A stretch of 42,140 bases of DNA, from positions 1 to 42,140 of the forward strand of contig CAMMMH010000013.1 of NCBI GenBank assembly GCA_946497955.1, written 5' to 3'. The notes beneath the pieces were generated by a model. It saw only the letters and a program-made list of their open reading frames with translations, had not been told where the DNA came from and did no database searches. This DNA is from an uncultured Mycoplasmatota bacterium (GTDB taxonomy: Bacteria; Bacillota_I; Bacilli_A; RF39; UBA660). This document shows positions 26,097-28,534 of this stretch, one piece after another. The position numbers and the translations under genes were made by a program. Each line of letters opens with the position of its first letter. The first letter of the stretch is position 1.

Positions 26097-26477
26097 TGGT
26101 GGAGATGAGGAGATTCGAACTCCTGTCCAAAAATAAAGCTACATAAACTTCTACAAGTTTAGATGATTAAGAAACTTCGAACTATTTTCTAGTAACCATC
26201 AACTAATAAAATAGTTCTAGTCTAAAAGATTCCATCATAGTCTAGACAAACTATAACTATATCCTGCTAAAATTAACCATCTTAACTTAACACAGGAAAT
26301 TAAGAAAAGACAGTGCATTTACCTATACTAGGCGAAAGCTAACTCAGTATTTTTCTTAAATAAGTTAGCAAATGCTGTTTTAATACTGTTTCCAGTTATA
26401 TTTAATTTAGTTTGTAACGTAAACAACTCGACTTGCCATTTATGCTCTATTATTCCTGTCGAAACCAAAGCATCCCC
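26097..26477 (-). ncRNA. ssrA: tmRNA
   Basis: The 381-nt gene starts GGGGATGCTTTGGTTTCGAC and ends GGTTCGAA-type T-arm ...CTCATCTCCACCA. The acceptor stem GGGGAUG/CAUCUCC closes with one G-U. The resume context TTAAATATAACTGG is the same as in Bacillus subtilis ssrA and sets the tag frame: GGA at 26,391-26,393 to TAG at 26,328-26,330. The tag begins GNSIKTAF, continues ANLFKKNT and ends ELAFA, 21 codons plus the charged Ala. It acts with SmpB to rescue stalled ribosomes; smpB lies upstream on the same strand. Confidence 0.95.
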
Positions 26478-26565: not shown

Positions 26566-26594
26566 TTGCACATAAGAGCTTAACATGATACTAT
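26566..26594 (+). promoter_or_regulatory. Extended -10 promoter of the small membrane-peptide gene
   Basis: TTGCAC (26,566-26,571), a 17-bp spacer and TACTAT (26,589-26,594) with an upstream TG (TGATACTAT) make a plausible extended -10 promoter. The predicted start at about 26,601 coincides with the first base of the long-range inverted repeat. Confidence 0.45.
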
Positions 26595-26601
26595 TAAATT
26601 A

Positions 26602-26830
26602 GGAATATTTAGTTATTTAGGTACTATCCCCCTAGCTTATATTTTATAATGTGAAAGGGGAGTTGATAATATGAGAAAAATAGAGAAATTCCTTTGTTAT
26701 ATCATATTTTCACTTGTTTTCATAATAATAGTTTTATTATTTATGTTAATAAAAATAGTACCTACTCCTTAGAGTGGTACTAAACCAACAATAAACGGGA
26801 TAGTACCTAACAGCCAAAGCTAGATATTCC
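26602..26830 (+). repeat. Nested inverted repeats enclosing a small gene
   Basis: Outer arms GGAATATTTAG (26,602-26,612) and CTAGATATTCC (26,820-26,830) match at 10 of 11 positions. Inner arms TTAGGTACTATCCC (26,617-26,630) and GGGATAGTACCTAA (26,797-26,810) are perfect over 14 bp. They frame a 33-codon ORF. A smaller hairpin GTACC-T-ACTC-CTTA-GAGTGGTAC (26,757-26,779) spans the ORF stop. No target-site duplication is visible outside the arms, which argues against a MITE. Confidence 0.8.
26671..26772 (+). CDS. Small hydrophobic membrane peptide (type I toxin-like)
   Basis: The ATG at 26,671 is preceded by AAAGGGGAG and opens a 33-residue ORF: MRKIEKFLCYIIFSLV, a second hydrophobic stretch FIIIVLLFMLI and the tail KIVPTP. 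It is a basic N-terminus plus one membrane helix, the size and shape of Fst/Ldr/TisB-type toxins, though I recognise no specific family. The SD can pair with CCCCC at 26,628-26,632 in the 5' leader, so translation may be structurally controlled. It runs antisense to read-through transcripts from smpB. Coding status is supported by the RBS, promoter, hydrophobic pattern and terminator. Confidence 0.55.
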   Translation: MRKIEKFLCYIIFSLVFIIIVLLFMLIKIVPTP

Positions 26831-26837
26831 CTTTTTT
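26797..26837 (+). terminator. Terminator of the small peptide transcript
   Basis: GGGATA (26,797-26,802) can pair with TATTCCC (26,825-26,831, one bulge), followed directly by six T (26,832-26,837). The same left arm can instead pair with the 5' leader, so terminator and long-range pairing are alternatives. Confidence 0.5.
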
Positions 26838-26906
26838 AATTTATGCAAATTTCTTTTACATATTCATATTATCATAAAATTATTATTAATTCAAGATACA
26901 TGTCAC

Positions 26907-27344
26907 TTATTTGTATTTATTAAGTTTAGCAGCTTCCCTCTTCAAATCTCTTTCTTTAATACTTTCTCTCTTATCATAGTTTTTCTTACCCTTACAAAGA
27001 CCGAGTTCTATTTTCGCTTTACCACGTACAAAATATAGTTTTAAAGGAATAAGAGTATATCCTTCTAATTTAAGTTTATTATCTAACTTTTTAATCTCAC
27101 TTTTATGAAGTAATAACTTTCTACTTCTTGTCTCTTCATGATTAAAGATATTACCTTCTTTATAATGGTCTATAAACATATTAACAAGATAAACTTCGCC
27201 ACCTCTTATAATTGCATAACTATCTTTAATAGAAGCTTTACCAAGCCTTATAGACTTAATCTCTGTTCCTTTTAAAACAATACCAGCCTCATATGTATCT
27301 TCTATAAAATAATCAAATTTAGCACGCCTATTAATAATCTCCAT
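26907..27344 (-). CDS. smpB: SsrA-binding protein SmpB
   Basis: The 145-residue protein is a typical SmpB: INRRAKFDYFIEDTYEAGIVLKGTEIKSIR at the N-terminus, then SYAIIRGGEVYLVNMFI, the RSRKLLLHKSEIKKL stretch and the basic tail LGLCKGKKNYDKRESIKERD. It binds tmRNA and places it in stalled ribosomes. I start at the ATG 27,342-27,344, 8 nt after GGAG; a GTG three codons earlier overlaps the capA-like stop. ssrA follows about 430 bp downstream on the same strand, separated by the antisense-oriented small peptide gene. Confidence 0.96.
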   Translation of the reverse strand: MEIINRRAKFDYFIEDTYEAGIVLKGTEIKSIRLGKASIKDSYAIIRGGEVYLVNMFIDHYKEGNIFNHEETRSRKLLLHKSEIKKLDNKLKLEGYTLIPLKLYFVRGKAKIELGLCKGKKNYDKRESIKERDLKREAAKLNKYK

Positions 27345-27349
27345 TATAA

Positions 27350-28534
27350 TCACTCCAAACTAGGCATCTCTATATTGCTATCAAGAGATAACACTATATT
27401 TTTATATGTCTCATAATAATCTCTATAACCAGGAAGTAATTCATCATTTAAACTAGTATAAGGATAAACAACAAAGTTTCTTTTCTTTCCATAAGTAGAA
27501 TGTGTATATAAAAGTTCTGCTTTAGGATTTCTTAACTCTATCGTACTAACACCGTTTTCCACAGACTTGTGGATATCTATACTAGCCATTAATCCCGTAA
27601 GACGTTCTACTCCCTCCTGGTCAGATATAAAGTTACCTAATGAATATATTACCATAGTCTTTCCAATAAAGGCAATGGGCTCTACTACATGAGGATGACT
27701 TCCAATAATAATATCAACACCAAGACTAGATAGGTAGTTAGCAATTTCCTGTTGTGATGCACTAACACTAGTAGAATATTCTGTTCCCCAGTGCATCGCT
27801 ACTATTACAACATCTACCTTGTCACGAACTTTTTCAATGTCCTCTTTCGCTTTCTCAGGACTATAGACATTATTTAGATATTCTTTACCACTAGGAGTCT
27901 CTAAGCCATTAGTCCAAGTAGTATAAGAAAAGAAAGAATAAGTAATACCATTAATCTCTTTAATAACTGGTTTATCTCTATCTTCAAAAGATAAATAACT
28001 ACCAGCCGTATAAACATCATCTTTACTATTCCAATAGTTTAAAGAGTTAATTACACCTGCCTCTCCTTTATCCATTGTATGATTAGTAGCAAGACTAACT
28101 AAGTTAAAACCTGCATCAATAAAAGCATCACCTACTTCATAAGGAGAATTAAACCTAGGATAATTAGATAAGCCTAACTCTGTTCCACCTAAAATAGTTT
28201 CTTGATTATAATATTTCAAATCATATTTTTTTATTAAGGGCTTAATCTCTTTTAACATTGGTTTAAAGTCATAACCATCACCTGTATAAGCATCATTATA
28301 AACAGTACTATGAATTAAAGCATCTCCTACCATTACAAGTGAGGCATCCATCTCTTCTTTCTTACTAACTACTTCTTCTTCCTGTTTTTGTTCTTTTACA
28401 TCATCTTTTTTAACATTATCATTAGTTAAACGATAATAAAATCCTAAACTCGCTCCAAATAAAACACCAATAAAAAGAATAATAACAAGACGACCTAATA
28501 CTGTTAACTTTCTTCTCTTCTTAACTTTACTCAT
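27350..28534 (-). CDS. CapA-family (PGA_cap) metallophosphatase-like protein
   Basis: The 394-residue protein has an N-terminal membrane helix (about 13-30) and an extracellular CapA domain. DASLVMVGDALIHS opens the fold, followed by YYNQETILGG, LVSLATNHTMDKGEAG, VVIVAMHWGTEYS and VDIIIGSHPHVVEP, the metal-site motifs of the family. Members include poly-gamma-glutamate synthesis protein CapA, but many stand-alone versions have no known link to capsule. It lies between rnr (2-bp gap) and smpB, so it is in the secG-rnr-smpB operon, where it is an insertion relative to the usual order. Confidence 0.85.
   Translation of the reverse strand: MSKVKKRRKLTVLGRLVIILFIGVLFGASLGFYYRLTNDNVKKDDVKEQKQEEEVVSKKEEMDASLVMVGDALIHSTVYNDAYTGDGYDFKPMLKEIKPLIKKYDLKYYNQETILGGTELGLSNYPRFNSPYEVGDAFIDAGFNLVSLATNHTMDKGEAGVINSLNYWNSKDDVYTAGSYLSFEDRDKPVIKEINGITYSFFSYTTWTNGLETPSGKEYLNNVYSPEKAKEDIEKVRDKVDVVIVAMHWGTEYSTSVSASQQEIANYLSSLGVDIIIGSHPHVVEPIAFIGKTMVIYSLGNFISDQEGVERLTGLMASIDIHKSVENGVSTIELRNPKAELLYTHSTYGKKRNFVVYPYTSLNDELLPGYRDYYETYKNIVLSLDSNIEMPSLE

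Follow-up and report, generated by a model that had tools for sequence, protein, structure and literature searches.

According to a recent paper, type I toxin-antitoxin (TA) modules occur only in Proteobacteria, Firmicutes, and Tenericutes and are difficult to detect, their parts being tiny; the bacterial group studied here is not named in that placement (PMC12390103). Two of the closest described systems rely on pairing between the ends of the toxin mRNA. In aapA/IsoA, the full-length mRNA is closed to translation by long-distance 5′-3′ pairing and by hairpins that mask the Shine-Dalgarno (SD) sequence (PMC6733600; PMC8309996). The hok mRNA of hok/Sok has complementary ends and metastable leader pairing and is stable and inert (as described in PMC6733600). 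Trimming of the 3′ end opens both mRNAs for translation (PMC6733600). Other modules use an antisense RNA that converges on the toxin gene. This is the case for txpA/RatA, bsrG/SR4, bsrE/SR5, and yonT/SR6 of Bacillus subtilis; SR4, SR5, and SR6, the last of about 100 nt, act at the 3′ ends of the toxin mRNAs, and RNase III cuts the duplex (PMC5848175). The CD2517.1-RCd8 and CD0977.1-RCd11 modules of Clostridioides difficile also consist of convergent overlapping genes and encode small hydrophobic peptides in multiple copies (PMC6563280; PMC7699646).

The window analyzed here, a stretch of 42,140 nucleotides from an uncultured Mycoplasmatota bacterium, contains a peptide unit between ssrA (complement 26097-26477) and smpB (complement 26907-27353, named from an earlier sequence-only reading of this DNA and from its position beside ssrA). 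This unit is very probably a member of an undescribed, multicopy, chromosomal type I TA family that works by the mechanism proposed below. Judged from its sequence, it is by class a type I module that falls in no Pfam, NCBIfam, PHROGs, PADLOC, or Rfam family. Pfam, NCBIfam, and PHROGs gave no match near the cut-off and only sub-threshold hydrophobic matches, PADLOC gave no match to the family, and Rfam matched tmRNA models only. A description of the family, or of type I TA modules in RF39-like bacteria, was not found in the mainly open-access literature searched, which is weak evidence. The earlier statement that no such family had been described agrees with these searches.

The family shares with aapA/IsoA a membrane peptide of about 30 aa, several chromosomal copies, and a cis antisense RNA, which is predicted here (PMC6733600; PMC8309996), as well as 5′-3′ pairing and SD-masking hairpins that close translation, here by folding prediction only. 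It differs in its unrelated sequence and phylum and in its predicted antisense RNA, which would cover the 3′ end of the mRNA and have its terminator on the stop codon. With hok/Sok it shares the long-range 5′-3′ pairing of the full-length mRNA. Homology to the Hok peptide or Sok RNA was not seen, with no Pfam or NCBIfam match near the cut-off and only tmRNA in Rfam, and no conserved mok-like overlapping frame was noticed in the family. The Sok antisense RNA targets the 5′ leader of hok, whereas the conserved antisense promoter and terminator lie here at the 3′ end. The hok-type label given by the sequence-only reading therefore fits the pairing of the mRNA ends, but not the position of the antisense RNA or any sequence relation to Hok.

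At the level of sequence, a convergent antisense RNA over the 3′ end of the toxin mRNA is predicted, like those of the four B. subtilis modules. Those peptides are unrelated and longer (BsrG, 38 aa; YonT, 58 aa), and an end-to-end pairing of 26 bp does not figure in the available part of their description (PMC5848175). The B. subtilis modules are also prophage-borne, in contrast to the present family, which is chromosomal and order-wide. Toxin or antitoxin homology to txpA/RatA or bsrG/SR4 was not found in Pfam, NCBIfam, PHROGs, or Rfam. The C. difficile peptides have 50-53 aa (PMC6563280) and no sequence relation to those studied here, and that group has long 5′ UTRs rather than an end-paired mRNA. 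Very short hydrophobic peptides are also found in Ibs/Sib and ShoB of E. coli (19 and 26 aa; PMC8309996). A sequence relation of Ibs/Sib or ShoB to the family was not found. We know of no end-to-end mRNA pairing in either of them. The best reading is that the family joins hok/AapA-like end-to-end mRNA pairing with a convergent 3′ antisense RNA like those of Bacillus and C. difficile, two control schemes that are usually separate. Its mRNA would behave as those of aapA and hok do, and its antisense RNA as those of the convergent modules, and it belongs to neither group.

The predicted sense transcription unit and its paired ends

The promoter, ribosome binding site (RBS), one-helix ORF of 33 aa, and complementary mRNA ends that the sequence-only reading had described are all present, on the forward strand. 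On inspection of the sequence, the candidate toxin mRNA promoter (26566..26594) consists of a −35 box, TTGCAC (26566-26571), a 17-nt spacer, and an extended −10 element, TG-A-TACTAT (TGATACTAT, 26586-26594). Its score is only slightly above that of shuffled sequence. A TA-rich −10-like hexamer precedes the 5′ arm in 85 of 96 copies, which is a weak test in AT-rich DNA. The RBS, AAAGGGGAG, is at 26654-26662, and a purine-rich SD occupies the equivalent position in accepted family copies. The ORF (26671..26772, ATG at 26671) shows codon-level selection and encodes the one-helix peptide MRKIEKFLCYIIFSLVFIIIVLLFMLIKIVPTP, a putative toxin. The same module at smpB is shared by three loci of other species, whose smpB genes are 98.7-99.3% identical to the one in the window. 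Upstream of smpB there is a 394-aa ORF (27350-28534, reverse strand) whose product looks, by eye, like a CapA/poly-gamma-glutamate synthesis metallophosphatase; the ORF stays adjacent to smpB in relatives.

The predicted mRNA starts with 5′ arm B (AGGAATATTTAG, 26601..26612), which pairs with 26819-26831 (helix 1, supported by covariation and duplex energy). It is followed by 5′ arm A (TTAGGTACTATCCC, 26617..26630), which pairs with 26797-26810 (helix 2, supported by covariation and folds). On the other side, 3′ arm A (GGGATAGTACCTAA, 26797..26810) is the perfect complement of 26617-26630, and 3′ arm B (GCTAGATATTCCC) is followed by T6, the U-tract at 26832-26837, to form the end of the toxin mRNA (26819..26837); covariation supports both 3′ arms. 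The two end-to-end helices thus have about 12 bp near the termini and 14 bp just inside. The outer arms, GGAATATTTAG and CTAGATATTCC, form 10 Watson-Crick pairs and one G-U pair, and the 14 pairs between the inner arms are all perfect, as the sequence-only reading had given them.

Judged from these sequences, the 5′-3′ pairing is real and beyond chance. The predicted RNA (26602-26838) folds with −74 kcal/mol (z = −7.7), and none of 200 dinucleotide shuffles was as good. Duplexes between a leader and its own 3′ end had a mean of −36 kcal/mol, compared to −13 to −31 with the 3′ ends of other classes and −16 ± 4 with shuffled sequence. Covariation was assessed in an alignment of 28 diverse copies, with two copies with visibly replaced leaders left out. 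In this alignment, 84.5% of arm cells are paired, compared to 40-47% after shifting the partner by 1-3 columns, and both-side (compensatory) changes occur at 19 of the 22 arm pairs. The arm covariation score was 0.47 versus 0.26 ± 0.015 for shuffled arms, and no shuffle out of 500 scored as high. Choosing the arms by duplex favors pairing, and more reliance can be placed on the class-swap and slide controls. Among the non-Watson-Crick arm cells, G-U (177) greatly outnumbers A-C (28). Selection therefore acts on the sense RNA, with the sense transcript as the constrained molecule, and an inverted repeat at the DNA level is ruled out as the main origin of the arms.

By folding prediction only, the ends pair with a probability of about 0.8 on average and the SD is closed. 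The SD of aapA opens after 3′ trimming; here, in contrast, predicted SD accessibility is 0.14 in the full-length and 0.12 in the truncated mRNA. Since the SD is closed in both alike, activation of the hok/AapA type by 3′ trimming is not predicted. A pairing of the leader CCCCC with the RBS had also been proposed. The C-run at 26628-26632 of 5′ arm A could indeed pair alternatively with the RBS, and leader/SD complementarity is in modest excess over shuffled sequence. However, the local hairpin in the ssrA-smpB copy is unexceptional on its own (z = −0.5), and a class-swapping test gave no convincing covariation of the leader/SD hairpin. Weak local hairpins are also predicted in the 3′ arms (−9.0 versus −4.3 shuffled) and in the leader (−5.9 versus −3.5 shuffled), which makes it plausible that two complementary hairpins open into one long helix.

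The predicted antisense RNA

Conservation identifies a second promoter, on the reverse strand beyond the end of the mRNA (26866..26894). It has a −35 box TTGAAT (26894-26889), a 17-nt spacer, and a −10 box TAATAT (26871-26866); many other copies have TTGACA-17-TACTAT. Across 135 copies, conservation extends from the U-tract of the mRNA to core position +38 and then drops to background. The conserved pattern is a reverse −35 TTGANA, 17 nt, and a reverse −10 TANTAT, and it ends just past the −35. The search selected for a 21-nt core only, and the −35 box, U-tract, ORF, and arms all lie outside that selection. The antisense promoter is the top-scoring promoter per copy in the same genome and is conserved more strongly than the peptide. 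In the ssrA-smpB copy it is weaker, with 8 of 12 consensus positions, and a simple consensus promoter scan did not list it.

A hairpin over the toxin stop codon had been noticed before. The hairpin is present, but comparison of the copies assigns it a different role, as the intrinsic terminator of the antisense RNA (26751..26782, reverse strand). The hairpin itself spans 26782-26756, with the toxin stop codon in its loop region, and is followed by a U-tract templated by A26751-26755. All 48 sampled copies have an antisense-strand hairpin of −6 kcal/mol or lower at the toxin stop, compared to 4 of 48 mononucleotide shuffles. Of 96 copies, 74 have the A-run that templates the terminator U-tract on the antisense side, and 6 have a T-run on the sense side.

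Together, the conserved promoter and the stop-codon terminator predict an antitoxin RNA of about 110 nt (26749..26860, reverse strand) that would be complementary to the 3′ end of the mRNA. Both 3′ arms lie within it, and its predicted fold has a z of −3.2. The hairpin at its 5′ end (ATGTAAAAGAAATTTGCAT, 26843..26861, reverse strand) is conserved over 135 copies, with a stem that alternates between copies as TAAA/TTTA or CAAG/CTTG.

The peptide family, its distribution, and alternative explanations

A DNA search found 20 matches in the same genome with the same layout and differing peptides, or about 20 modules of this layout in 1.7 Mb. R1, a 76-nt model of the 3′ module built on sequence only, gave 24 matches there, and at least 16 of these have a hydrophobic ORF that is intact. 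The peptide classes in this genome include MRKIEKFLC...VPTP, which is the class of the ssrA-smpB copy, MSKKDFLI...LLIIYR (22 aa), MKTKTFIIKVLK...KIK (31 aa), MSKKDFLV...IIILI (30 aa), and more. All copies have in common the sequence that follows the mRNA U-tract, TTATGTAAATTTCTTTTACATATTCATAnTATCATAAA...TCAAG.

An RBS and a short hydrophobic ORF were found at the equivalent position, under strict criteria, in 107 of the 120 full-length copies (those with full upstream sequence), in at least six sequence classes. dN/dS is about 0.12-0.35 within peptide classes and about 0.19 in the class of the ssrA-smpB copy, values that are approximate because they come from a crude count over non-independent pairs; most substitutions fall at third codon positions, also in the class of this copy. 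At the sequence level, the family ORFs are therefore under purifying selection, and the same 33-aa peptide is present in MAGs of other species. The sequence-only reading had named a broken ORF beside persisting arms as the sign of a mere repeat and had proposed looking for arm covariation and ORF conservation in related genomes. Both were found, and only a few remnants have lost the ORF.

A scan of named genome contigs with the shared core found at least 112 stretches, and the core matches listed were nearly all from MAGs labelled Bacilli, Tenericutes, Erysipelotrichaceae, or Candidatus Onthousia. R1 matched 281 of 385 genomes of the order and 90 of its 117 genera, commonly with at least 12 matches per genome in the same genus. 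In a class-wide draw, R1 matched only five genomes outside the family to which the window's genome belongs. One of these matches (G551) was strong, a full module with an intact 30-aa ORF, and a draw across the phylum gave one further strong outside match (G854). The viral contigs, phages, and plasmids searched gave no match to the family, and a phage or plasmid origin was rejected.

Several individual copies depart from the common form. In L118 and L094, the leader and promoter have been replaced while the ORF and 3′ module are intact. L012 (about 880-1065 of contig 53 in the same genome) is a remnant that has lost its 5′ half and has a broken reading frame, and L118 and L094 followed by L012 form a series of decaying copies. 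L010 (C5:39539-39956, same genome) holds two modules in tandem, one of the VPTP class and intact, the other of the KKDFLI class, degenerate and lacking an ATG. In another genus, the 3′ module of a copy is found on the opposite, 3′ side of ssrA (L220:1-70, G011 contig 36), so family modules have come to flank the tmRNA gene on either side. This might be because tmRNA genes are common insertion sites. A contig from a Thermoguttaceae MAG, of an unrelated phylum, contains the core pattern once without a hydrophobic ORF (L063), by chance or by mis-binning.

The type I toxin-like reading is supported at the sequence level, and the peptide is a putative toxin by its likeness to short one-helix type I toxins (PMC8309996). 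Alternatively, the peptide could be a non-toxic membrane micropeptide with a regulatory or structural role, for instance one that modulates a membrane protein, and a cis antisense RNA would limit its synthesis. Single helices are common among bacterial micropeptides, and purifying selection on the peptides would suit such a role as well, toxicity being argued by analogy. However, toxin control better accounts for the many paralogues of differing class per genome, the remnants, the stronger conservation of the antisense promoter relative to the peptide, and the doubly locked mRNA, and we regard a non-toxic role as rather unlikely.

The about 20 dispersed copies, some tandem and some truncated, and the copy that another genus carries on the opposite side of ssrA would also be expected of a small mobile or repeat element in which the complementary ends are terminal inverted repeats and the ORF is incidental. 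Against this, the arms are internal, with the conserved promoters beyond them, their G-U cells are far more numerous than their A-C cells, the reading frame is conserved, and no such sequence was seen in the viral contigs, phages, and plasmids. A transposable or structural repeat was rejected because of the internal position of the arms, their tolerance of G-U on one strand, and the conserved ORF, and an element of this kind has very little probability left. The sequence-only reading's version, in which folding is the main control of a hok-like mRNA and smpB read-through supplies the antisense partner, agrees with the orientation of smpB towards the unit and with the confirmed 5′-3′ pairing, but the family is found at numerous unrelated sites, and its modules carry a conserved antisense promoter and terminator of their own, so that this partner is unneeded and the version is hardly credible.

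Proposed mechanism

For a type I TA module, we infer transcription, duplex decay, an activation step, and toxicity from the sequence parts, covariation, coding selection, and family distribution. The rightward promoter would give an mRNA of about 235 nt for a single-helix membrane peptide of 22-33 aa, the putative toxin. The first approximately 30 nt of this mRNA would pair with the last approximately 35 nt in two helices of about 26 bp, and part of the leader could pair with the RBS. The prediction is thus that the completed mRNA is stable and closed to translation. Buried ends and a closed SD would suit a stable, silent mRNA pool. The second, strongly conserved promoter beyond the mRNA end would direct the antisense RNA of about 110 nt back over the 3′ arms, with transcription ending at the terminator on the toxin stop codon. 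Being complementary to the 3′ arms, the antisense RNA resembles the mRNA’s own leader and should compete with it for these arms. The duplex at the 3′ end of the mRNA would be destroyed, most likely by RNase III, in parallel with what is described for SR4, SR5, and SR6 (PMC5848175), and an RNase III gene is present in this genome. If antisense synthesis falls, the long-lived mRNA would be left without an antidote, opened by some processing or refolding step, and translated, and the peptide would act on the cell’s own membrane.

A broader proposal is an order-wide chromosomal type I TA superfamily in which the antitoxin RNA is a copy of the leader that competes with the leader for the 3′ arms. 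We offer it tentatively and consider it more doubtful than probable. If true, binding of the antitoxin would expose the mRNA ends to nucleases and free the leader to close the RBS, and the about 20 copies of diverse class per genome would provide small-genome gut Bacilli with a standing array of insulated switches for self-toxicity.

Comparison alone brought to light a family with hundreds of copies in an order of gut bacteria that are mostly uncultured, together with compensatory changes in the RNA and a clear promoter for the putative antitoxin. With so many natural variants, both the folding pathway and the specificity between the toxins and antitoxins of paralogues can be tested directly, and the 76-nt R1 module can readily be used for searches.

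A GC-RAA-like motif (TTGCAAAA, CGCAAAC, GCCAAAG) was also seen in many copies in the segment left unpaired between the 3′ arms (26811-26818 in the window, and its equivalents). It would form the loop of the middle hairpin of the antisense RNA and could be the site at which pairing starts.
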